A stretch of 64,000 nt of DNA from Candidatus Polarisedimenticolaceae bacterium (GTDB lineage Bacteria > Pseudomonadota > Gammaproteobacteria > Chromatiales > Chromatiaceae). Positions 4,651-22,460 of this stretch are shown piece by piece. How positions within the stretch are numbered: position 1 is the first letter of the stretch; every line of letters starts with the position of its first letter. Below the pieces are notes generated by a model. The model had not been told where the DNA came from and did no database searches. It saw nothing but the letters and a program-made list of their open reading frames with translations. The stretch lies in assembly GCA_021647945.1 (NCBI GenBank), contig JAKITT010000004.1, positions 1 to 64,000 on the forward strand, given 5' to 3'. The translations under genes and the position numbers were made by a program.

Positions 4651-4689
4651 GCTAAGTGGGTTGATAGCGTAATAAGATTCAATATTTAA
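4651..4689 (+). pseudogene. Relic of the 3' end of a second GxxExxY gene
   Basis: In one frame the last codons read AKWVDSVIRFNI then stop. The intact gene at 4854-5225 ends [12 protein letters not shown] then stop, and in both cases the stop runs straight into the same 84-bp sequence. The remainder of the older copy is gone. This shows that the gene end and the tail travel or duplicate together. Confidence 0.55.
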
Positions 4690-4771
4690 TCTCTGTGTCC
4701 TCTCGGCTTTGGCTTCCTGCGTCGCACTACCTCCTGCATCCATGCAGTCGTGTGCTCTCTGTGGTTAATAA
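4688..4771. repeat. 84-bp direct repeat, copy 1 (GxxExxY tail)
   Basis: Identical over 84 bases to 5225-5308. It starts with AATCTCTGTGTCCTC and ends with CTCTCTGTGGTTAATAA. It follows the GxxExxY relic just as copy 2 follows the intact gene. Confidence 0.9.
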
Positions 4772-4853
4772 TATTTCGACGCTGTTGATTAGCTTGTAAT
4801 TTGGTGCAATAGAAACAGCTCAAGCAAGAGATAAAATGCCATGGAGGCTTCTG

Positions 4854-5225
4854 ATGGAAAGGGACCTGTTAACAGGGAAAGTTATTGGTTGTGCTATTGA
4901 GGTGCATCGTGCTTTGGGGCCAGGTTTACTGGAATCGACCTATGAACAGTGTTTGGCTAGAGAGCTGGGGATGCAAGAGATTCCATTTAGACTACAGGTG
5001 CCTCTTCCTGTTAAGTACAAAGGTATTCAGTTAGATTGTGGTTACCGAATCGATCTATTGGTTGATAAGAGACTGATTTTGGAACTGAAAGCAGTTGAAA
5101 ATATTAAAGGTATCCATGAAGCTCAACTGCTGACCTATATGAAACTCTCTGGTATTGGTAAAGGGCTATTGATCAATTTCAACGTAACTAAGCTCGTTGA
5201 TGGAGTAAAACGATTCAAAATTTAA
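4854..5225 (+). CDS. GxxExxY family protein
   Basis: A 123-residue protein of the GxxExxY family (function unknown; the fold is thought to be nuclease-like). The naming motif is visible as [11 protein letters not shown] near residues 25-35. Further conserved features are [16 protein letters not shown] (acidic D, then ELK as in PD-(D/E)XK nucleases) and the C-terminal [17 protein letters not shown]. The start at 4854 is preceded by GGAGG at good spacing; an upstream in-frame ATG at 4836 lacks one. It stands alone between proA and nadD, bracketed by two identical 84-bp repeats. The nuclease link is family knowledge, not shown here. Confidence 0.85.
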
Positions 5226-5308
5226 ATCTCTGTGTCCTCTCGGCTTTGGCTTCCTGCGTCGCACTACCTCCTGCATCCATGCAGTCGTGTGCTCTCTGTG
5301 GTTAATAA
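5225..5308. repeat. 84-bp direct repeat, copy 2 (GxxExxY tail)
   Basis: Identical to 4688-4771. It begins at the last base of the GxxExxY stop codon and ends six bases before the nadD start, so the nadD ribosome-binding region (TAATAACC) comes from the edge of the repeat. Confidence 0.9.
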
Positions 5309-8732: not shown

Positions 8733-11000
8733 ATGAAGGAGTACATTGCCCGTATCAAAAAGAGTGATGACGCTGAGCAGTGGGAAGCGGCTCATGAGCT
8801 ATCAGACCACTTACAAAAAACATCAAAACGAGCCGGTGAACTGGCCAGTAGTATCGGTAGTGAATGGGCTTTGTTAGCGGGGCGTTGGCATGACCTAGGT
8901 AAATATAGGGAAAAATTCCAAGACTATATCCGCATTCAAACAGGTTATGAGAGTGAGAATACTCATATTGAAAATGGAACAAGGCAACCGCACTCAACAG
9001 CGGGAGCTATTCACGCTGTAAATACACTTCCTGCTGGTTTTGGTCATATCATTGCCTACCTGATCGCGGGGCATCATGCCGGTCTAGCTGATTGGAATGG
9101 GGGAAGGGGTAGCCTTAAGTATCGCTTGGAAAATGGAGTTGAGGAGTATAACGAGGCTTTAGCTGAATCAATACCTGTAGAGCTTTTATCCGCAGACACT
9201 CCTACCTTGCCAGAGATGGCTCTATCAGCTGATGCCATGTCGTTATGGATCAGGATGCTCTTCTCCTGTTTGGTAGATGCCGATTTTCTTGATACCGAAT
9301 CTTACATGCAGCCTGATAAGTCGTTATATCGGCAAGAGCGGTTGTCACTAAATGAATTGCAAACCCGTTTTTATGCGTCGATGAGTTCTCTGCAACAAAA
9401 GAGCAGCAAGAGCTCTTTATCTGGAATTCGTAACAAAATACTGAATCAATGTGAAAGTGCCGCAGCGTTGCCGCCTGGTATATTTAGCCTGACAGTACCT
9501 ACTGGTGGTGGAAAAACACTCTCCAGCCTCGCTTTCGCGCTAAAACATGCGGCACGTTATGATAAGAAACGCATCATCTATGCAATTCCCTTTACCAGTA
9601 TTATTGAGCAAAATGCTGATGTCTTTAGATCATTTTTGGGTAAAGAGGCGGTGCTCGAACACCACAGTAATTTGGATGTAGCACCTGAAAAAGAGAGCAG
9701 TGCATCGCGGCTTGCAGCTGAAAATTGGGATGCTCCACTTATTGTGACGACCAATGTACAGTTGTTTGAGTCACTACACGCTTCACGCACCAGTCGATGT
9801 CGAAAACTACACAACATAACGAATAGCGTCATTATTCTTGATGAGGCTCAACAGATTCCAAGAGATTTCCACGCACCCATTACCCAAGTCATGCGGCAGC
9901 TCTCAGAGCATTACGGTGTTACATGGGTGTTATGTACCGCTACTCAACCCGTACTTACTGAGTCAAAAAGCCCCTTTGGTCAGGTTATGTTAAAGGGGTT
10001 AGGGCATGTCCATGAGATTATCTCTAATCCCGCAGAGCTGGCCGTAAAATTAAAGCGTGTCGAGGTGCAGTTACCCAAGCCCAATTCAGGCCGAATGAGT
10101 TGGTCGTCACTGGCTGATGAGCTTGCAAAAGAGCCATCTGTACTGGTTATTGTCAACACACGTCGCCAAGCCAGAAAGCTATTTGAGTTGCTGCCTGATA
10201 GTAAAAATAACCTCCATCTATCTGCCAACATGTGCGCCCAACATAGAACAGAGCTAATTGCCCAGATCAAAATTCGTTTACAGCAACGAAGAGATGGCGA
10301 TACAAGGCCGCTCAGGGTTGTGAGTACTCAACTTATAGAGGCGGGGGTGGATGTTGATTTTCCTCTGGTCTACCGTGCTATGGCGGGTCTCGACTCCATT
10401 GCACAATCAGCGGGGCGCTGTAATCGGGAAGACAAATTAAAGAGTGGACGTGTGGTTGTTTTTAATGCGGAGGAGGCCTCCCCAGCTGGTTTTCTTCGGC
10501 AAGGTGAAGAGATCACCATTGAGATGATTGCCAATGGGCAGCTTGAAGATCCGTTATCTCCAGAGAGCTTTTACCATTACTTCTCAATGATGAATTCAAA
10601 GGGTGAGCGAGATAAATATAATATTGTTGATCTACTGACGATGAAATCATCAGCAGATGCACCGCTGGCTATTCAATTCAGAGAGGCCGCAGAACAGTTC
10701 CGCCTCATTGATGATAAAGGGGTTGCTGTCATTGTTCCCTTTGAGCCAGAAGGTTGTGACGATAGCCCTATCGAAGAGTGGATCTCCCAGCTTGAGAGAG
10801 ATGCCTCTCAAAAGTGGGTATATAAGAAATTGCAGCGTTATACCGTGACAATTCCTGAGAGATTGGCTGTGCAATATCAGGCAAATAAGTGCATTGATGA
10901 AAGAGCTGGCTTATATGTGTTGTTAGATGATTTTTATCACGAATGCTGGGGTGTGGATTCTGCTGAAACACTAGCCTCAGCAGAGGCTAGTGTAATGTAG
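8733..11000 (+). CDS. cas3: CRISPR-associated helicase/nuclease Cas3 (type I-C)
   Basis: Recruited by Cascade after R-loop formation to nick and shred target DNA. The N-terminal HD nuclease shows LLAGRWHDLGKY (about 47-58), HSTAGA and LIAGHHAGLADW. The SF2 helicase has Walker A VPTGGGKT (about residue 255), Walker B LDEAQ (about 368; DEAQ rather than DEAH), CTATQP and motif VI QSAGRCNRE. Length 755 is usual. The ATG at 8733 follows GGGATAAGG. The last codons run into a 26-bp palindrome (10967-10992), so the extreme C terminus may be poorly conserved. The cas5-cas8-cas7 genes follow after a 358-base gap that holds the guide-like RNA and a small ORF. Confidence 0.97.
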   Translation: MKEYIARIKKSDDAEQWEAAHELSDHLQKTSKRAGELASSIGSEWALLAGRWHDLGKYREKFQDYIRIQTGYESENTHIENGTRQPHSTAGAIHAVNTLPAGFGHIIAYLIAGHHAGLADWNGGRGSLKYRLENGVEEYNEALAESIPVELLSADTPTLPEMALSADAMSLWIRMLFSCLVDADFLDTESYMQPDKSLYRQERLSLNELQTRFYASMSSLQQKSSKSSLSGIRNKILNQCESAAALPPGIFSLTVPTGGGKTLSSLAFALKHAARYDKKRIIYAIPFTSIIEQNADVFRSFLGKEAVLEHHSNLDVAPEKESSASRLAAENWDAPLIVTTNVQLFESLHASRTSRCRKLHNITNSVIILDEAQQIPRDFHAPITQVMRQLSEHYGVTWVLCTATQPVLTESKSPFGQVMLKGLGHVHEIISNPAELAVKLKRVEVQLPKPNSGRMSWSSLADELAKEPSVLVIVNTRRQARKLFELLPDSKNNLHLSANMCAQHRTELIAQIKIRLQQRRDGDTRPLRVVSTQLIEAGVDVDFPLVYRAMAGLDSIAQSAGRCNREDKLKSGRVVVFNAEEASPAGFLRQGEEITIEMIANGQLEDPLSPESFYHYFSMMNSKGERDKYNIVDLLTMKSSADAPLAIQFREAAEQFRLIDDKGVAVIVPFEPEGCDDSPIEEWISQLERDASQKWVYKKLQRYTVTIPERLAVQYQANKCIDERAGLYVLLDDFYHECWGVDSAETLASAEASVM
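10967..10992. repeat. Perfect palindrome at the cas3 3' end
   Basis: ACACTAGCCTC and GAGGCTAGTGT form an 11-bp stem with a four-base loop (AGCA), overlapping the last cas3 codons. It could act as the end of the minus-strand transcript described below, or as a transcript-end hairpin for cas3. No T-run follows. Confidence 0.6.
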
Positions 11001-11022
11001 GTGGGCACCAGAGTGCCCACCT
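10999..11022. terminator. Hairpin bounding the guide-like RNA and cas3
   Basis: AGGTGGGCAC and GTGCCCACCT pair perfectly over 10 bp with loop CAGA. It starts at the last bases of cas3. On the minus strand it begins exactly where the spacer-like segment of the guide RNA would end (11023), so it probably marks the 3' end of that RNA. No T-run is present on either strand. Confidence 0.5.
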
Positions 11023-11083
11023 GATTCGTACATATACAAACAATAAATAGATAGTTTCAATCCACACATATCAAATATGCGAC
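11023..11083 (-). ncRNA. CRISPR-repeat-like guide RNA (CreA/CreR-type) between cas3 and cas5c
   Basis: Read on the minus strand, 11083-11054 is a 30-base mimic of the array repeat. It begins GTCGCA and ends TGGATTGAAAC, both identical to the 33-base repeat, while the middle differs. The repeat's 7-bp stem CGCACCC/GGGTGCG is replaced by CGCATAT/ATATGTG, which still pairs (one wobble), so the hairpin recognised by Cas5c is kept by compensatory change. The last eleven bases correspond to the 5' handle known for type I-C crRNAs. Next comes a spacer-sized 31-base segment (11053-11023) beginning TATCTATTTATTGTTT, then a strong hairpin. These first 16 bases match the site at 11113-11128. CreA and CreR RNAs of other types work this way, with Cascade binding and no cleavage because complementarity is partial. 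The type I-C assignment and function are inference. Confidence 0.75.
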
Positions 11084-11089
11084 AAGGTG

Positions 11090-11118
11090 ATAGTACACGT
11101 AGGATGAGAATGAAACAA
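11090..11118 (-). promoter_or_regulatory. Promoter of the guide-like RNA
   Basis: On the minus strand TTGTTT (11118-11113) and TACTAT (11095-11090) are 17 bases apart. The expected start, about seven bases on, falls at 11083, the first base of the repeat mimic. The -35 element lies inside the guide's own target site. Confidence 0.55.
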
Positions 11119-11131
11119 TAAATAGATAGAA
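11113..11131 (-). promoter_or_regulatory. Target site of the guide-like RNA with TTC PAM
   Basis: On the minus strand TTC (11131-11129) is followed by TATCTATTTATTGTTT (11128-11113), identical to the first 16 bases of the spacer-like segment; identity stops there. TTC is the established type I-C PAM and the match starts at the PAM-proximal seed. The site sits 7 bases upstream of the -35 of the plus-strand promoter and covers the -35 of the guide RNA promoter. Confidence 0.75.
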
Positions 11132-11138
11132 AGAGAAG

Positions 11139-11167
11139 TTGATATGCTTTGATCTGCTTGGTAGGAT
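11139..11167 (+). promoter_or_regulatory. Promoter for the small membrane peptide and cas5c operon
   Basis: TTGATA (11139-11144) and TAGGAT (11162-11167) with a 17-base spacer. The start would be near 11174, just upstream of the small ORF. Cascade bound at the TTC site would lie against this -35 element. Confidence 0.5.
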
Positions 11168-11176
11168 TTACAGCCA

Positions 11177-11332
11177 ATGTTTATTCAGGACGGGGCAGAA
11201 ATGGGCTTTGAATGGATCCCAGAAGCGATAACTCGGCTTAATCAGTATCCACATGAGCGTTTTTGGGGTGTGCTGATAATTGGGTCGCTCGTCGTGATGG
11301 TTTGTACATGGCTAGCAGTGAAAAGAAAGTAG
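11177..11332 (+). CDS. Small single-span membrane peptide (candidate CreT-like toxin)
   Basis: A 51-codon frame (ATG 11177) or 43-codon frame (ATG 11201, preceded by AGGA and GGGG at usable distance). The N-terminal part is amphipathic (GFEWIPEAITRLNQYPHERF). One hydrophobic helix follows (WGVLIIGSLVVMVCTWLAV), and the peptide ends in KRK. That shape, a short inside-positive single-span peptide, is common among type I toxins. It lies between a guide-like RNA that targets the adjacent promoter and cas5c, 26 bases before the latter. In CreTA modules the toxin gene occupies this place and is repressed by Cascade with CreA. No homolog is recognised; it could also be a leader or a membrane adaptor. 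Confidence 0.5.
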   Translation: MFIQDGAEMGFEWIPEAITRLNQYPHERFWGVLIIGSLVVMVCTWLAVKRK

Positions 11333-11358: not shown

Positions 11359-12018
11359 ATGGGATTTTGTTTAGAGGTTTCAGGGGACTTTGCCTGTTTT
11401 ACACGGCCAGAGATGAAAGTGGAGCGAGTCAGTTATGACGTTATCACCCCTTCAGCGGCAAGAGCCATATTTGAGGCTATTTTGTGGAAACCCGCTATTG
11501 CGTGGCATATCCATAAAATTGAGGTGATGCGACCTATCGAGTGGATCAGTATTAGGCGCAATGAGGTTGGGGCTGTTTTGCCGGTCGGTAATATCAATAA
11601 AGCGATGAAAGGAGGTGCTTTACCTGCCATCTACATTGAGGAGGAGAGGCAACAGAGAGCGGGGCTTTTTCTCAGGGATGTCTCTTATCGGTTACATGCC
11701 AGCTTTTCATTGACCGACAAAGCTGGCTCGTCCGATAGTGCGGGTAAATTTGTTGATATGTTCAAGCGGCGGGCAAAAAAGGGGCAATGTTTTAACCAAC
11801 CCTATCTAGGGTGTCGAGAGTTCTCATGTGATTTCAGATTAGTAGAGTCACCTGAAGATGAGTGTGCCGCCATCACTGAGAGTAAACCGCTTGGTTGGAT
11901 GCTCTATGACATGAATTACCACCTGTCCCAAGAGCCAATGCCTCTCTTCTTTAATGCCGTTATGGATAATGGAGTGATCACGGTGCCTGATCGAGAGAGT
12001 GCGGAGGTGCGGGGATGA
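11359..12018 (+). CDS. cas5c: Cas5c (Cas5d), type I-C pre-crRNA endonuclease and Cascade subunit
   Basis: In type I-C there is no Cas6; Cas5c cleaves each repeat at the base of its hairpin and then stays on the crRNA 5' handle. The 219 residues show the family pattern: LEVSGDFACFTRPEMKVER at the start, VITPSAARAIFEAILWKP, the mid-domain VSYRLHASF, and FNQPYLGCREF. The ATG at 11359 follows AGGGAGA. The stop overlaps the cas8c start (ATGA). The same enzyme would be expected to process the repeat mimic at 11054-11083. Confidence 0.95.
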   Translation: MGFCLEVSGDFACFTRPEMKVERVSYDVITPSAARAIFEAILWKPAIAWHIHKIEVMRPIEWISIRRNEVGAVLPVGNINKAMKGGALPAIYIEEERQQRAGLFLRDVSYRLHASFSLTDKAGSSDSAGKFVDMFKRRAKKGQCFNQPYLGCREFSCDFRLVESPEDECAAITESKPLGWMLYDMNYHLSQEPMPLFFNAVMDNGVITVPDRESAEVRG

Positions 12019-13763
12019 TTCTACAAGCACTCTGTGACTACTACGACCGCAAGCATGATGAGCTGCCCCCCTTTGGCTTTGAAGAGAAAGAGATCCCCTT
12101 CATTATCGTCATTAACGAACAAGGTGAGTTTATTAACCTTGAAAGCAACTATGCGTTGGAGGATGGCAAGCGGATCGTCAAACCCATGCGAGTTCCCAGG
12201 GCATCGGGTCGATGTGGAGCAAAATCATACGAAACGGCCTACCCTCTGTGGGATCACTATGGTTACGTTGCCAAGCAGCCAAAACTGGCAAAACCAACAG
12301 ATCAACCCACAGAGAAAGCACTTGATGATGCTCAAAAACAGCATGATAGTTTCAAACGTTTAACAAAGCAGCTAGAGCAGGCACTACCTGGAGATATTGG
12401 CATAAGGGCAGTTAATTTATTCATTAACTCAGAAGTGCAGATAGAGCGGCTAAAAGCATCTGAAACATGGCAAGAGTCTCTTAAAATTAAAGGCTGTAAC
12501 TTAACGTTTCGTTTGGCTGGTCAGCAAGCTCCTGTCTGCCAATCTGAGCAGGTTATCGAATGGGTCAAACAACAGCCGATACCTGAGGCTAATGCACAGG
12601 ATGGATTTTGTCTCATCACGGGGAAAAAGGGCAAGGTTGTTCGGCTGCACAATTCAATCAGTGGTGTAAGCCAAAAGCCAGCACCGCTGGCTGCCATCAA
12701 TGAGCCAGCCTACACCTCACATGGTAAAGAAAAGGGTTTTAACTTTCCGATAGGTGTTGAGTCATCATTCAAATATGCAGCTGCGCTCAATCACCTACTG
12801 AGGAAGCGTTCACAAACAAAATTCCGTATCGCTGATACCTCTTATGTCTGTTGGGCTGAGAAAGCCAATGTGCAGGAGACGCTCTTCACCTCGCTCATTA
12901 CAGGTCTTGATGACGATCCTGATAACGGTGCAGTGGCAATAAAAAGCCTCTTTGCAACCATTCATAATGGTGCCTATAGTAGCAGTGATGGGCGTGATGC
13001 TTTTTTTGTTTTGGGATTAGCCCCCAACTCCGCTCGTATTGTGGTGCGCTACTGGAGAGTCGGCACGATTGCCAAGTTTTCAGAAAACCTTGCTCAGTGG
13101 TTTACCGATATTGATATGGCAGGGCGTGATCACTACGGCTATCCATCGTTAAAAAAGCTGCTTCGTGCTACGGCCTTACAGTACAAAGATGACAACATTG
13201 CTCCCAATCTGCCACCCACGGTTATCAATGCCATCCTGTCGGGTGGACGCTTACCTGAAACACTACTTCAAGCCACTTTGCGTAGAGTTAAAGCGGAACT
13301 CGGTCATGTCACCTACGTTCGTGCTTGCTCAATCAAAGCCACACTTAATCGCAAATATAGATTTTCTGCCACTAACCAGAGGGAATTAACAGTGTCACTA
13401 AACCATGATGAAACACGTCCAGGCTACTGCCTTGGGCGACTCTTTGCTCTGCTGGAAAAGCTTCAACTCAAAGCTCAGACTGGCATTAAAGCGACCATCA
13501 GAGATCGTTATTACAGTAGTGCTAGTAGCACACCAAAAACAGTATTTGGGACGCTAATGCGACTATCAACCCATCATCTCTCTAAACTAAAAAAGACAGG
13601 CAAGGATTACTATCTTGAGAAGGAAATTGAAGAGGTGATGCAGCTGATTTCTGAGTTTCCATCTCACCTTAATTTAGAAAATCAGGGGCTATTTGCAATT
13701 GGTTACTACCATCAAAAACAAGCCCTATACCCTACAAATAAAAAACAAGGAGAAGAGCAATGA
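12015..13763 (+). CDS. cas8c: Cas8c (Csd1), type I-C Cascade large subunit
   Basis: Recognises the PAM and helps recruit Cas3. The 582-residue protein has the Csd1 opening [27 protein letters not shown] and the central [14 protein letters not shown], then [18 protein letters not shown], both characteristic of the family. The small Cascade subunit Cas11 of type I-C is usually made from an internal start in cas8c; candidate internal starts exist in the 3' third but none is clearly marked by a ribosome-binding site. It overlaps cas5c and cas7c by four bases at each end, so the three are translationally coupled. Confidence 0.95.
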
Positions 13764-14620
13764 GTCTGGATAATCGATATGAATTCGTGCTGCTATTTGA
13801 TGTGAAAGATGGCAATCCCAATGGTGACCCCGATGCAGGGAACTTGCCGCGCATCGATGCAGAAACAGGTATGGGATTGGTAACGGATGTCTGCTTAAAG
13901 AGAAAAGTTCGTAACTTTGTGCAGATGACTCAAGCAGATAACCCAACTAGGAAAATATTTATACGTGAAAAGGGGATTCTCAACAACATGATTGATGAGT
14001 CTCATGAGCAAGAGGGCGTAAAAGATAAACAGAAGGGAGACAAAACTGAGGCAGCAAGAGCGTGGATGTGTGAAAACTACTATGACATTCGTACTTTTGG
14101 GGCAGTGATGAGTACCGGAAAGAATGCGGGGCAGGTAAGAGGCCCTGTTCAGCTGACATTTTCTAGGTCAATCGACCCCATTGTTGCTTCGGAACACTGC
14201 ATTACCCGAATGGCCGTAACAACACCGCAAGAGGCGGAAAAACAGAGTGGAGAAAATCGCACTATGGGGCGTAAGTTCACCGTGCCTTACGGTTTGTACC
14301 GTTGTCATGGGTTTGTATCGGCACATCTTGCAAAGCAGACGGGGTTCAGTGACGAGGATTTAGAGCTGCTATGGGAGTCTCTATTACTGATGTTTGACCA
14401 TGATCGTTCCGCCAGCCGTGGAGAGATGAGTACAAGAGGACTCTATCTATTCAAACACAGCAATATGTTGGGTCATGCACCCGCTACGACACTGCTTGAT
14501 CGTATAAAAGTTAAAGCTAATGATGGTGTTGAGGCTCCACGGAGTTTTGCGGATTACCATGTTGATGTTGATGAGTCAGAGCTGCCAAATGGGGTGGAGT
14601 TGATCAGGCGACTTGGTTAG
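13760..14620 (+). CDS. cas7c: Cas7c (Csd2), type I-C Cascade backbone
   Basis: Forms the helical backbone along the crRNA spacer. The 286 residues include the family signatures [21 protein letters not shown] at the N terminus, [32 protein letters not shown], and [20 protein letters not shown] near the end. Length fits Csd2 (about 280-300). The start overlaps cas8c. A 41-base gap then leads to cas4. Confidence 0.96.
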
Positions 14621-14661: not shown

Positions 14662-15324
14662 ATGGCTAAATGCCCTAAAAAAGAGCCTGATTGGCTGATG
14701 ATCTCCGCCCTCCAGCACTACGCCTACTGCCCACGCCAATTTGCCCTAATCCATATCGAGCAGGCGTGGGCCGATAACTTCTTCACCGCCCACGGCAATC
14801 TGCTGCATGAGCGTGTCGATAGCTACGAGTCTGAACAGCGGGGCGATATCCGTTATGAACGCAGTGTTGCGGTGCGTTCCAATGCGCTCCAGATTAGAGG
14901 CAAACTTGATCTTTTGGAGGTTGAAGGGGGATCGGCCAAAAAATATTACCCTGTGGAGTATAAACGCGGAAAACCAAAGCAGGAGCCGTGGGATAAAATT
15001 CAACTCTGCGCTCAGGCGCTCTGCCTTGAGGAGATGCGGGATACCACCATCGAGAGTGGTGCGATGTGGTACTGGCAAGTAAGAAAACGCGAGCATGTCC
15101 CGTTTGATGAGGAGCTGCGGGGTATCACGCTGCAAATGATCAAAGAGGCCCACTCACTATTGATGAGTGGCCAAACACCTGAACCGATAGCCGATCAAAA
15201 GCGTTGTAAGGCTTGCTCGCTCAATGATCTGTGTGAACCTGCCGTCTTTCGGCGTGACCATTCGAGTGCATATATTGAAGGGATTTTTTCTGATCCGACA
15301 AGGAGTGAGTCAAATGGAGACTGA
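14662..15324 (+). CDS. cas4: Cas4 nuclease for spacer adaptation
   Basis: A RecB-type nuclease that trims prespacers and selects PAM-correct ends together with Cas1. The 220 residues show ISALQHYAYCPRQFALIH (first cluster cysteine at about 21), HGNLLHERV, the nuclease core PVEYKRGKPK, and a C-terminal CKACSLNDLC giving the remaining iron-sulfur ligands. ATG at 14662 follows TAGGAG. The 3' end overlaps the BRO/DinD-like gene by eleven bases instead of leading directly to cas1 as in most type I-C operons. Confidence 0.94.
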   Translation: MAKCPKKEPDWLMISALQHYAYCPRQFALIHIEQAWADNFFTAHGNLLHERVDSYESEQRGDIRYERSVAVRSNALQIRGKLDLLEVEGGSAKKYYPVEYKRGKPKQEPWDKIQLCAQALCLEEMRDTTIESGAMWYWQVRKREHVPFDEELRGITLQMIKEAHSLLMSGQTPEPIADQKRCKACSLNDLCEPAVFRRDHSSAYIEGIFSDPTRSESNGD

Positions 15325-16168
15325 TATGACCTTTTTTGAGAACTACCAGATCCGGCGTGTTTATGATGATGAGGCGGAAGTTTGGTTGTTTTCGGTGATT
15401 GATATTGTGCAGGTGCTTACCCAGCAGTCTGATCATCAGACCGCCAGGAACTACTGGAAGGTATTGAAAAACCGACTGAATAAGGAGGGAAGTGAAGTGG
15501 TTACAAATTGTAACCAGTTGAAAATGAGAGCAACAGATGGCAAGCAGCGTTCCACCGATGTAGCGACCGCTGAAACCCTGTTGCGTCTAGTGCAATCTGT
15601 TCCCAGCCCTAAAGCTGAGCCGGTTAAGCTCTGGTTGGCCAAGGTGGGCTATGAACGGATGCAGGAGATGAGTGACCCCGCAAAGTCGCTGAACCGTGCT
15701 AGGGAGACCTGGCAAAAGCATGGCCGAAGTGAAAAATGGATTCAGCAGCGCATGACAGGGCAGGAGACCCGCAACAAGCTGACCGACTACTGGAGCAATC
15801 ATGACGTTAAGAAGGGTGAAGAGTACGCCACTCTTACTAACATCATTCACCAGGAGTGGGCCGATGTAAGTGTAAAGGAGCACAAATCTCTAAAAGGGTT
15901 AAAGAGCCAAAATTTGCGGGATCACATGAGTGAGGCAGAACTGATCTTTACCGCGCTGGCAGAGCTATCAACACGGCAAATTGCCGAGAGTGATGATGCG
16001 ATGGGTATGGATGAAAACCGATCAGCGGCAAAAACGGGGGGTGGTATTGCCAAAAAAGCGCGTAAAGATCTGGAGGATAAAACAGGAAAAAAAGTGATCA
16101 GCTCCGATAATTATCTGCCTCAGACAAAGCGAGCAGCCCTCAAAAATAACACTGACAAAACATCGTGA
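15314..16168 (+). CDS. BRO-N / DinD-like protein embedded in the cas operon
   Basis: A 284-residue protein. The N-terminal half (about 10-115) is a BRO-N/antirepressor-like domain (FENYQIRRVYDDEAEVWLFSV, later TAETLLRLVQSVPSPKAEPVK). The C-terminal half resembles E. coli DinD, a DNA-damage-inducible protein that inhibits RecA activities: SVKEHKSLKGLKSQNLRDHM, then AELIFTALAEL and the lysine-rich tail. The ATG at 15314 follows AAGGAG and overlaps cas4 by 11 bases; the stop overlaps the cas1 GTG by four. Such overlaps on both sides argue that it is an integrated member of the operon, not a stray insertion. A role in DNA-damage response or spacer acquisition is inference. Confidence 0.8.
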   Translation: METDMTFFENYQIRRVYDDEAEVWLFSVIDIVQVLTQQSDHQTARNYWKVLKNRLNKEGSEVVTNCNQLKMRATDGKQRSTDVATAETLLRLVQSVPSPKAEPVKLWLAKVGYERMQEMSDPAKSLNRARETWQKHGRSEKWIQQRMTGQETRNKLTDYWSNHDVKKGEEYATLTNIIHQEWADVSVKEHKSLKGLKSQNLRDHMSEAELIFTALAELSTRQIAESDDAMGMDENRSAAKTGGGIAKKARKDLEDKTGKKVISSDNYLPQTKRAALKNNTDKTS

Positions 16169-17477: not shown

Positions 17478-17653
17478 TCGCTAACCGTTAGCTCTCATTG
17501 AAAACCAAATAGGGTTAGCGGAATGCTAACTCCCTGTTTTTGCAAAGTAATAATTCACAAACATTCTGCTCTTTAACAATTTGGTAAATTCCATTCCAGG
17601 TTAGCGGAATTTGGGTCGTTGGATTATTGAAATCAATCGATTAGACTTGAGCA
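17478..17653 (+). promoter_or_regulatory. Leader of the type I-C array
   Basis: The 176 AT-rich bases between cas2 and the first repeat. GGTTAGCGGAAT occurs twice (17513-17524 and 17599-17610), and CGCTAACCGTTAGC near the start is a related inverted form. CTCTTTAACAATTTG at 17571-17585 recurs in the type I-E leader downstream. The leader side is identified because the far end of the array carries the degenerate repeat. Confidence 0.75.
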
Positions 17654-19977
17654 GTCGCACCCTCACACGGGTGCGTGGATTGAAACCACGCTTTATTTCT
17701 TGACCCTGGGTTAGGTAAAACGTCGCACCCTCACACGGGTGCGTGGATTGAAACATAAACAAAAGGTTGTATAACATGACTAAACCAGGTCGCACCCTCA
17801 CACGGGTGCGTGGATTGAAACTCGAGAGCGGGAAGTAAAGCTGTAACGGCAATGAAGTCGCACCCTCACACGGGTGCGTGGATTGAAACCAACCGTATTT
17901 CTTAGCAGCTTTTAATTGCTCTTGTCGCACCCTCACACGGGTGCGTGGATTGAAACCCTTAATGATAATCCTGGGGCAATTGCAGCGCGAGTCGCACCCT
18001 CACACGGGTGCGTGGATTGAAACTATAAAAGGTAAAGCTTATTCTTATGGAGAGAGGTCGCACCCTCACACGGGTGCGTGGATTGAAACATAGCTGGCTA
18101 ATGAATCAGTCTATAGTCATTAAGTCGCACCCTCACACGGGTGCGTGGATTGAAACAACTAAGCGACTCAATTACGGACATAATGATTAAAGTCGCACCC
18201 TCACACGGGTGCGTGGATTGAAACCAAAAAGATGAAGACAGATGGACTCGGCTTATTGTGTCGCACCCTCACACGGGTGCGTGGATTGAAACTGGTTAGC
18301 CATTTGTTGTAGGTACAATATAAACGTCGCACCCTCACACGGGTGCGTGGATTGAAACACCTGTAACAGGGTGCTTTATCTCTGTGTGTGTCGTCGCACC
18401 CTCACACGGGTGCGTGGATTGAAACAACTGTCGTTGATCATCGCCGGATGACTCATAGAGGTCGCACCCTCACACGGGTGCGTGGATTGAAACTGTTGCC
18501 ACTGCTGCCGACTGGACTGGTTTAACAGGTCGCACCCTCACACGGGTGCGTGGATTGAAACTCGGTACTACGGTTAAATCAATAACACCCTCAAAGTCGC
18601 ACCCTCACACGGGTGCGTGGATTGAAACAATACTACAAGATAAATTGGTCAAATATGTTCAACGTCGCACCCTCACACGGGTGCGTGGATTGAAACCAAT
18701 CTAGGAAAGAAAGATATTATTGAATTTCTCGTCGCACCCTCACACGGGTGCGTGGATTGAAACTGAATTGCAGGTACATAAGAAAACCACCCATCACGTC
18801 GCACCCTCACACGGGTGCGTGGATTGAAACCATACCCCATCTACGGATAAGCTCATACGTCAAAGTCGCACCCTCACACGGGTGCGTGGATTGAAACCGC
18901 TTACATAGCTTAGGACGGGCTTGCCCTGCCGTCGCACCCTCACACGGGTGCGTGGATTGAAACACCTCCATCTGAATCATCAGCACCAGTTGCAACAGTC
19001 GCACCCTCACACGGGTGCGTGGATTGAAACATACTCCGTAGCTCACACTAACAAAAACATACAGGTCGCACCCTCACACGGGTGCGTGGATTGAAACTCA
19101 GAATAGCCATTATCGATGAATGATTGGATAGCACGTCGCACCCTCACACGGGTGCGTGGATTGAAACACCAAAAAGATAAAGGCTGCGATGATAGGCGGC
19201 CTGTCGCACCCTCACACGGGTGCGTGGATTGAAACTCTGCTTCTGTTACAGCTCCAGTTGCCTGAGACGCGTCGCACCCTCACACGGGTGCGTGGATTGA
19301 AACATCGCCACCCTCATACGATAGCATGAGGAATTTAGGTCGCACCCTCACACGGGTGCGTGGATTGAAACTTGTGACATGCTAGCGTATGACAGGGAAT
19401 CCGCCGTCGCACCCTCACACGGGTGCGTGGATTGAAACAAGTGCCGATTGGCGTTTCGTATAAGTTCGGCCAGTCGCACCCTCACACGGGTGCGTGGATT
19501 GAAACCCAGATTCGCTCATTTATGTTCGCCAGCCAACCTGTCGCACCCTCACACGGGTGCGTGGATTGAAACTCCTTTCCATGTAATAAGGTGACTCCCG
19601 TTAATTGTCGCACCCTCACACGGGTGCGTGGATTGAAACTTACGGACTTGATTGACAAAGGCGCATTAGTTCAGGTCGCACCCTCACACGGGTGCGTGGA
19701 TTGAAACCACTTATCGTTATCAATAAATTCATCTGCTTTGTCGTCGCACCCTCACACGGGTGCGTGGATTGAAACAACGCTACTAAGCGTCATTAATATG
19801 GTTCGCGGAGGTCGCACCCTCACACGGGTGCGTGGATTGAAACAACGAACGAGCGGAATGACACCTTGATTTCTTGTGTCGCACCCTCACACGGGTGCGT
19901 GGATTGAAACAATTGGTTGGTTGAGTAGCTTGAAGGTTTACTCAGGTCGCACCCTCACAGGTGTGTGGACTGAAATG
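17654..19977 (+). CRISPR. Type I-C CRISPR array, 35 repeats, 34 spacers
   Basis: Repeats are 33 bases, starting GTCGCACCCTCACACGGG and ending TGCGTGGATTGAAAC; the stem CGCACCC/GGGTGCG is the Cas5c hairpin. I count 34 uniform repeats at 66-70 base intervals (spacers 33-37, mostly 34-35) and a degenerate last one at 19946-19977 (TGTGTGGACTGAAAT end). New spacers therefore enter at 17654. Uniform repeats with an intact cas operon argue for a recently active locus. No spacer was seen to match elsewhere in the window, though I did not compare them exhaustively. Confidence 0.99.
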
Positions 19978-20380: not shown

Positions 20381-20393
20381 TTTGGGTATAACA

Positions 20394-20657
20394 ATGGAAA
20401 CTACAAAACTCTCCAGCAAGGGTCAGGTCATCATCCCTAAACTGGTAAGAAGTTCGCACCATTGGGAACCGGGCCAGGAGCTTGAGGTTATTGATGTGGG
20501 TGATGGTGTGTTGTTAAAGGCAAAATCGCCCTTTGAGGAGACAACCATTGAAGACGTGGTGGGTTGTCTCGCCTATAAAGGGCCAGCAAAGAGTCTTGAT
20601 GCGATGGAAGAGGCAATTCAAGCAGGCGTGAAGGAACAGACGGATGATTGCAGTTGA
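20394..20657 (+). CDS. vapB: VapB-type antitoxin (AbrB/SpoVT fold)
   Basis: The 87 residues start METTKLSSKGQVIIPKLVR, the swapped-hairpin AbrB DNA-binding signature, with EVIDVGDGVLLKAKS following. The C-terminal third, which would wrap the toxin, is acidic and probably disordered. The ATG at 20394 fits the family start better than the TTG at 20382. It overlaps vapC by 14 bases. The pair lies between the cas6e remnant and cas1e. Confidence 0.85.
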   Translation: METTKLSSKGQVIIPKLVRSSHHWEPGQELEVIDVGDGVLLKAKSPFEETTIEDVVGCLAYKGPAKSLDAMEEAIQAGVKEQTDDCS

Positions 20658-21033
20658 TACGAATGTAGTGGTGCGGTTTTTAACGCAGGATGATGAACAT
20701 CAAGCTAAAAAAGCAACCACTCTTTTTAAGCGCCAACAGATCTACATCCCTGACACGATAATTCTTGAGACAGAGTGGGTACTAAGATATGCCTACCACT
20801 TCACTGCTACAGAAATATGCAGGGCACTGGTCAAGTTATTTGGTCTACCCAATGTGAACCTATCAAATCCAATCTGGATTGCTCAAGCTATTACGTGGCA
20901 TGAACAAGGCATGGACTTTGCCGATGCATTGCATCTTGTTCAAAGCCAATCTTGCGAGCAGTTTTTAACCTTTGATCTTAAATTAATAAATAAGGCAAAA
21001 AAGCTAAGTGAGAGTGTCGTGAAAGCCCCGTAG
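20644..21033 (+). CDS. vapC: VapC-type PIN-domain RNase toxin
   Basis: A 129-residue PIN nuclease that would cut RNA, often tRNA, when freed from VapB. The acidic metal site is present: D5 (VDTNVVVRFL), E42 (ILETEW), D91/D94 (MDFADALHL) and D111 (TFDLK). It starts within the end of vapB. Placed beside cas1e-cas2e it may stabilise this decayed CRISPR segment by addiction; that is inference. Confidence 0.88.
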   Translation: MIAVDTNVVVRFLTQDDEHQAKKATTLFKRQQIYIPDTIILETEWVLRYAYHFTATEICRALVKLFGLPNVNLSNPIWIAQAITWHEQGMDFADALHLVQSQSCEQFLTFDLKLINKAKKLSESVVKAP

Positions 21034-21075
21034 TTTGCTTCGTGTTTATCTGGAAAAACAGCCACAAGGATCGTC

Positions 21076-22300
<1,225 letters not shown>

Positions 22301-22431
22301 CTTTTGGATGGCATTAGCCATCGATTTTACTGTTCTTTAACAATTTGAAAATTGCCACTGAGAAGCTCAAATTTGTTGGTGGAATTGAAGAGGGTGTTTT
22401 TTCTCAATGAGATCAATGGTATAAGTTTAGA
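22301..22431 (+). promoter_or_regulatory. Leader of the type I-E locus
   Basis: The 131 bases between cas2e and the lone repeat. GTTCTTTAACAATTTG (22333-22348) resembles the start of many type I-E leaders and matches the motif in the type I-C leader at 17571-17585. GGTATAAGTTTAGA just before the repeat is reminiscent of leader ends in the family. Confidence 0.6.
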
Positions 22432-22460
22432 GTGTTCCCCACACCCGTGGGGATGAACAA
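22432..22460 (+). CRISPR. Single type I-E repeat without spacers
   Basis: GTGTTCCCCACACCCGTGGG and the following GATGAACAA form a 29-base type I-E repeat (stem CCCCAC/GTGGGG), with AA where CG is usual at the 3' end. No second repeat follows; the chemotaxis gene ends 17 bases on. The array has therefore collapsed to its terminal repeat. Confidence 0.85.

Follow-up and report, generated by a model that had tools for sequence, protein, structure and literature searches.

What a single degenerate CRISPR repeat does in the gap between cas3 and cas5c, and which genes it may control, is the question raised by the type I-C locus in the 64,000-nucleotide stretch of DNA analysed here (the window). Type I-C is a common subtype without Cas6, and Cas5c, its pre-crRNA processing nuclease, is encoded here within a complete locus of cas3, cas5c, cas8c, cas7, cas4, cas1 and cas2, as assigned with Pfam. 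The cas3-cas5c gap measures 358 nt, and the repeat of the array is GTCGCACCCTCACACGGGTGCGTGGATTGAAAC. The locus is laid out as follows.

8733 to 11000, plus strand: cas3 (Pfam).
10999 to 11022, minus strand: GC-rich hairpin AGGTGGGCAC-TCTG-GTGCCCACCT, the 3' end of the unit, at the place of a second repeat.
11023 to 11053, minus strand: guide (psiS) of about 31 nt, beginning TATCTATTTATTGTTT, with a seed matching the target in 16 of 16 bases.
11054 to 11083, minus strand: repeat mimic (psiR1) of 30 nt, with its own 7-bp stem and the exact 11-nt handle TGGATTGAAAC.
11090 to 11118, minus strand: candidate mimic promoter (TTGTTT, 17 nt, TACTAT), a weak consensus match lying under the protospacer.
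11113 to 11128, minus strand: target seed of 16 nt; a full Cascade protospacer would extend to about 11095.
11129 to 11131, minus strand: PAM TTC (GAA on the plus strand), TTC-specific across loci.
11139 to 11167, plus strand: candidate small-ORF promoter (TTGATA, 17 nt, TAGGAT with TG), a consensus match.
11187 to 11195, plus strand: Shine-Dalgarno-like AGGACGGGG, as read from the sequence.
11201 to 11332, plus strand: small ORF of 43 aa with one predicted membrane helix, MGFEWIPEAITRLNQYPHERFWGVLIIGSLVVMVCTWLAVKRK, a candidate toxin.
11359 to 12018, plus strand: cas5c (Pfam Cas_Cas5d).
12015 to 14620, plus strand: cas8c and cas7 (Pfam), in the same direction as cas5c and the small ORF.
17654 to 19910, plus strand: CRISPR array of 34 identical 33-nt repeats.

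The original prediction had placed a repeat mimic on the minus strand at 11083-11054, keeping both ends of the repeat around a different 7-bp stem, and every base of it was found where it had been placed. The mimic, GTCGCATATTTGATATGTGTGGATTGAAAC, retains the first six and the last eleven bases of the array repeat, the latter being identical to the repeat's 5' handle, and its stem (CGCATAT/ATATGTG; 7 bp, one of them a G-U pair) is unlike the repeat stem in its letters but still folds. Read from 11083, the minus strand runs from GTCGCATATTTGATATGTGTGGATTGAAAC through TATCTATTTATTGTTTGTATATGTACGAATC into a hairpin of 9-10 bp at 10999-11022, to which the prediction made no reference; since this hairpin lacks a T run, it can at most be proposed as a terminator or an end-protecting element. 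Nearly every related mimic likewise has a strong hairpin after its guide, that of L060 being weak. A canonical CRISPR array was ruled out here, given that at least two like repeats are needed and that one degenerate repeat is followed by a non-repeat hairpin. The Rfam search returned no match above threshold and weak sub-threshold ones only.

Comparison of the guide TATCTATTTATTGTTT with minus-strand 11128-11113 gave identity in 16 of 16 bases, directly after TTC, and a match at chance level past base 16, in exact agreement with the predicted copy that begins at the seed and then stops. The site 11131-11113 is the sole seed-plus-PAM site in the 3.43-Mb genome, in which no second self-target of the guide was found. 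With the candidate mimic promoter lying under the protospacer, the guide would in addition hold down its own synthesis. On the plus strand, the small ORF, likewise absent from the prediction, starts 69 nt past the PAM (its product would have 51 aa if the ATG at 11177 were used), and cas5c starts 26 nt after its end on the same strand, with no terminator-like site found between the two. Besides the TTGATA-17-TAGGAT promoter, an alternative extended -10 element, TGATATGCT (TATGCT with extended TG), ends at 11148 and fits the -10 position in relatives better. Three features that define CreTA were found in the window: a crRNA-like gene outside the array with repeat-derived sequence and the effector-binding handle kept, a guide pairing with a PAM-flanked site over the seed only (positions 1-5 and 7-11), and a target at the promoter region of the small gene beside the guide gene, the promoters being consensus matches only. 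A conserved small membrane ORF, the candidate toxin, is coupled to the guide.

Other type I-C loci were searched for such mimics in a convenience sample of Cas5c relatives from public genomes, comprising 183 distinct upstream regions. In the main scan, the guide following a TTGAAAC handle was compared with nearby TTC-flanked sites, at least 9 matches being required among seed positions 1-5 and 7-11. With TTC, 16 of the 183 loci passed, compared to at most one for other trinucleotides, and 398 of 400 shuffled handles yielded no locus at all. An earlier scan had given the same picture (13 of 139 loci with TTC, at most one for any other trinucleotide, and none for 297 of 300 shuffled anchors). 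When the target was allowed on either strand and the handle relaxed to GAAA[CT], 18 of 183 loci matched at all ten seed positions with TTC, against a mean of 0.06 over the other 63 trinucleotides; at the 9/10 threshold, the corresponding values were 24 loci and a mean of 0.54. Three further loci were added by eye, namely L060 (PAM TTT), L078 (match shifted by one base) and L113 (PAM GTT). With about 0.5 matches expected by chance at the 9/10 threshold, L174, which passed it with the poor handle CTGAAAT, is probably fortuitous and was not counted. Altogether, the survey of mimics between cas3 and cas5c that the original prediction had called for yielded 26 modules among the 183 I-C loci, to which plasmid pTM3 of Tistrella mobilis KA081020-065 (L232), found later, is added; the assignment of TTC as the type I-C PAM of the target and the judgement that chance is very unlikely were both sustained by these PAM, anchor and shuffle controls over up to 183 loci. 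The plasmid-borne I-C loci of Zymomonas, Nitratidesulfovibrio, Geminicoccaceae, Acidisoma, Azospirillum and Parabacteroides held no credible module.

Across the 26 loci, a handle is accompanied by a stem whose letters differ by locus and which still folds. The guides are also unlike one another, and each fits its own target. Counted over 16 loci, mismatches at positions 1-5 numbered 0, 0, 1, 0 and 0, at position 6 seven, at positions 7-11 1, 0, 0, 1 and 2, at position 12 eleven and at positions 13-15 1, 2 and 4, with random matching beyond. Position 6 and all positions from 12 on lay outside the selection criterion, and the mismatches at positions 6 and 12 are the expected signature of pairing by Cascade. 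In Haloarcula CreA, positions 1-5 and 7-11 are required, while 6 and 12 are free (PMC8501985). Guides and targets have also changed together. Comparison of the window with L010, its nearest relative, shows positions 4, 8, 13 and 16 altered on both sides, guide and target, without loss of pairing, and the only one-sided change is at position 12; double changes were likewise observed in the pairs L098/L101 (six), L012/L031 (four) and L042/L094 (two), and L191 differs from L192 at positions 6 and 12 only. Gene conversion between guide and target could contribute to these changes and would also leave a functional match in place.

The small ORF is conserved, and pN/pS values of 0.07-0.44 in five pairs of relatives indicate purifying selection. 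A profile HMM built from ORFs of this kind gave 18 good matches among the 1,259 ORFs of the upstream regions, of which 16 are at mimic loci (L113 and L199 among these were recognised afterwards), one is in L092, a second copy of the window, and one is in L055, a locus without a mimic. Among 369 genomes of the window's class, five strong profile matches were obtained, all at I-C loci with a mimic, and 63 genomes of another order gave six strong matches at mimic loci and two weak relatives elsewhere. Searches of the small proteins against Pfam and NCBIfam found no credible family and no phage-defence family match, and a search of the small ORF against plasmids gave no match. In L055, the small ORF is kept without a recognisable mimic, a state hard to reconcile with a strong toxin unless the promoter no longer works, and its ATG has changed to GTG. 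Two more distant relatives of the small protein, with the motif PSERFWGIVGL, were also seen outside cas loci (L226:2437-2573 and L227, about 2715-2843), one beside a UmuC-like gene and the other on a plasmid-like contig with a toxin-antitoxin-like pair.

Three arrangements of these elements were distinguished. In layout A, that of the window, the mimic is on the minus strand and the small ORF and cas5c are on the plus strand; in layout B, the small ORF is on the minus strand and the mimic and cas5c are on the plus strand, so that the small ORF lies past the target and off the cas5c transcript. In both, the small ORF is always divergent from the mimic, in either orientation of the module relative to cas5c. 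The inversion of the relation to cas5c in layout B points to small ORF, target and mimic, in this order, as the constant unit. Nine layout-A loci were tested for a -10-like hexamer on the strand of the small ORF, and each has one in the 22 nt that follow the PAM; no draw out of 20,000 taken at random from these regions reached the same score. In layout B, 2 to 10 nt separate the PAM from the small ORF's start codon. Layout C (L106, L108, L127, L134, L150 and L172) has the order small ORF, mini-CRISPR, cas5c on one strand, with the target at the small-ORF promoter on the other strand; a same-strand-only search for a third layout had given zero throughout, and it was the either-strand search that recovered it. 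A second degenerate repeat is kept in L106, L108 and L172, and the proteins are small and hydrophobic and may or may not be homologous to the A/B family, the small ORF of L150 being uncertain. L150 is a contig from a viral collection, so such modules may travel on mobile elements.

The position of the module is also restricted. Among the 170 loci with cas3 upstream, the cas3-cas5c gap is shorter than 100 nt in 122, none of which contains a mimic, whereas a mimic occupies 25 of the 48 wider gaps and a further 12 contain ordinary toxin-antitoxin genes or what remains of them, namely Phd/YefM with a PIN toxin in eleven and HicAB in one (representatives confirmed by Pfam; L020, L027, L029, L059, L087, L093, L095, L157, L159, L185, L003 as a remnant, and L004). 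On the Cas5c tree, the mimic label changes 16 times over 19 rows, compared to a shuffled mean of 18.3, on a tree that understates the mimic loci because it was made before the six layout-C loci were found and labels them 'none'; with presence so scattered, no single origin can be claimed. Given these varying contents, the scattered tree labels and the close relatives L091 and L190, in which cas5c directly follows cas3, toxin-antitoxin-like cassettes have landed in the slot, or been lost from it, repeatedly. A GIY-YIG-like protein or remnant was also noticed in the cas3-cas5c gap of the Rhizobium sp. Q54 plasmid (L237) and of L128, the likeness being judged by eye; Pfam found no family for the similar ORF of L128.

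The original prediction had read the arrangement as that of CreA or CreR in a type I-C setting, a reading strengthened by the mismatch periodicity, the co-change of guide and target, the TTC specificity and the restriction to wide gaps. We regard it as probable that the unit 11083-10999 is a CreTA/CreR-like module of type I-C, in which the small protein would most likely act as a toxin or induce dormancy and the level of Cascade would be set as well. The minus-strand unit 11083-10999 would act as a natural single-guide mini-CRISPR. Its transcript would be cut by Cas5c below the stem of the mimic, leaving the usual 11-nt handle on a processed guide RNA predicted to start TGGATTGAAAC-TATCTATTT, and this short RNA would load into type I-C Cascade and bring it to 11131-11113, where guide and target would pair at seed positions 1-5, 7-11 and 13-16. 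Such pairing would be too short for cleavage by Cas3, resulting in binding without cutting, and the bound Cascade would shut the promoter region for the mimic leftwards and for the small protein and cas5c-cas8c-cas7 rightwards, the repression of the cas5c operon being probable. Loss of Cascade, its inhibition by an anti-CRISPR or its titration by other crRNAs would lift the repression from the small protein and from Cascade alike, so that the module would serve as a type I-C CRISPR guard that also sets the Cascade level. Within this scheme, guide-directed repression of the control region is, judging from the sequence, very probable. That the small protein is toxic or dormancy-inducing is rather more likely than that it is harmless, on the grounds that the slot otherwise holds toxin-antitoxin genes, that the product has membrane-peptide character and that precedents exist. 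Small hydrophobic proteins are not necessarily toxic.

A first alternative is that the guide only autorepresses cas5c-cas8c-cas7, as in CreR, the small membrane protein being a harmless or accessory passenger. The target of the window is indeed upstream of cas5c on the same strand, and in five mimic loci (L010, L022, L047, L060 and L232) mimic and target are present but no small membrane ORF of these families was recognised; the toxin part is therefore not universal, and these loci look like plain autorepression. The target is, from the sequence, clearly at the cas operon promoter in L047, L060 and L232, and in L047 and L060 a good promoter directly before the target (TTGACA, 17 nt, TACATT in L047) appears to drive the mimic and cas5c, an arrangement which, with no small membrane ORF, looks like that of a plain autorepressor. 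As a separate observation, L060, a Nitrospira MAG, has between its plus-strand mimic and cas5c a cysteine-rich ORF of 67 aa (4749-4952) with no Pfam match. For the window, however, autorepression of the cas genes alone seems unlikely, as the small ORF is under purifying selection and is found almost only with mimics, and as in layout B it lies beyond the target and off the cas5c transcript, a relation that one would not expect a passenger to retain. The presence of this conserved membrane ORF speaks rather for a toxin guard, one that is also part of the cas5c transcript.

Alternatively, the small protein may be an abortive-infection or second-line effector triggered by anti-CRISPRs, similar to CrePA/CRISIS, acting on phage-infected cells rather than enforcing addiction to Cascade. 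The anatomy would be the same, and CRISPR-repressed defence genes inside cas loci have been described (PMC12409349, PMC12737573), but the sequence offers nothing that would separate such an effector from addiction and the small protein matches no phage-defence family; we consider this improbable. That the unit, degenerate and outside the array as it is, should be an array relic or a functionless coincidence is extremely improbable, chance and neutral decay being excluded by the PAM specificity, the periodic mismatches and the matched changes on both sides, together with a mimic stem that differs from that of the repeat yet folds.

The closest published case to the CreTA/CreR-like module favoured here is the I-E CreTA of Citrobacter rodentium, in which a 96-bp ORF within the cas3-casA gap has to be translated for toxicity and CreA is encoded on the other strand (PMC12055562). 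Both have a gap between cas3 and the Cascade genes, a crRNA-like CreA upstream of a small ORF on the opposite strand and a PAM-flanked partial target at the (candidate) toxin promoter. The Citrobacter system, however, is of type I-E with an ATG PAM and an ORF reported without homologue (PMC12055562), whereas the window has type I-C, a TTC PAM, putative processing by Cas5c and a conserved membrane family of 38-75 aa as candidate toxin. Next comes the I-F CreTA of Acinetobacter, with a cas3-csy1 gap of about 400 bp in some strains only (PMC10097628), a mini-ORF divergent from creA and downstream of the CreA target, and pairing that skips position 6; it differs in its CC PAM, in processing by Csy4 and in a CreT that acts as a small RNA (PMC10097628). 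Translated or toxic small genes in cas3-to-Cascade gaps are thus on record for I-E (PMC12055562) and I-F (PMC10097628). Haloarchaeal I-B CreTA shares seed positions 1-5 and 7-11, the TTC PAM and degenerate repeats (PMC8501985, PMC9458426) as well as a place beside the crRNA-processing gene (cas6 there, cas5c in the window), and differs in having an RNA toxin, Cas6 and an archaeal host.

CreR (Liu et al. 2023), a crRNA-like RNA that autorepresses cas genes through limited complementarity to their promoter, is reported for I-B, I-E and V-A (as cited in PMC13131331); I-C is not among these subtypes, and the window differs in the usually coupled small membrane ORF within the same control region. 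The CrePA/CRISIS systems (Shu et al. 2024-2025, as cited in PMC12409349 and PMC12737573) likewise pair an effector with a crRNA-like guide that represses protein-coding genes inside cas loci, CreP being described as a KilA-N protein acting on FtsZ, unlike the single-helix membrane protein of the window. Self-directed crRNA-like guides have thus been described for I-B, I-E, I-F and V-A systems, and none for type I-C was found in the literature searched; the original CreR, CrePA and CRISIS reports may contain I-C cases, so no priority is claimed.

Chances are about even that type I-C has its own family of guard modules, in which a single-helix membrane toxin would be held off by a Cascade-bound mimic guide, in the cas3-cas5c gap and in three interchangeable layouts; in the window, the toxin and the Cascade genes would share one repressed promoter, so that one RNA would both guard Cascade and meter its amount. 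Of the 183 I-C loci surveyed, 26 follow the same logic, beside cas5c, the processing gene of the subtype. Deleting or inhibiting I-C Cascade in such strains is predicted to release the small membrane protein, a prediction of relevance to editing with I-C systems, to the anti-CRISPR strategies of phages and to the question of addiction device versus regulator. The independent guide/target pairs also offer a natural measurement of the minimal pairing that I-C Cascade needs for repression.

Several further features of the window were noted. A protein with a Bro-N domain (15224-16168, plus strand; Pfam Bro-N, 5e-8) is encoded between cas4 and cas1, overlapping cas4, and may be an additional gene embedded in the cas operon; translated pieces of L010, the nearest relative, resemble it. 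Elsewhere, two direct repeats of 87 nt (4685-4771 and 5222-5308; 99% identical) surround a small ORF at 4836-5225 between two housekeeping genes, which looks like a recent insertion or a duplicated cassette. On the 3' side of the I-C array (20382-22459, plus strand), an AbrB-like/PIN pair at 20382-21033 is followed by a second, different cas1 at 21076-21990 (plus strand) and a likely cas2. A leader-like sequence at 22330 resembles one at 17566, and a single type I-E-like repeat, GTGTTCCCCACACCCGTGGGGATGAACA, lies near 22433-22460, the whole being apparently a spacerless array with its own adaptation genes.
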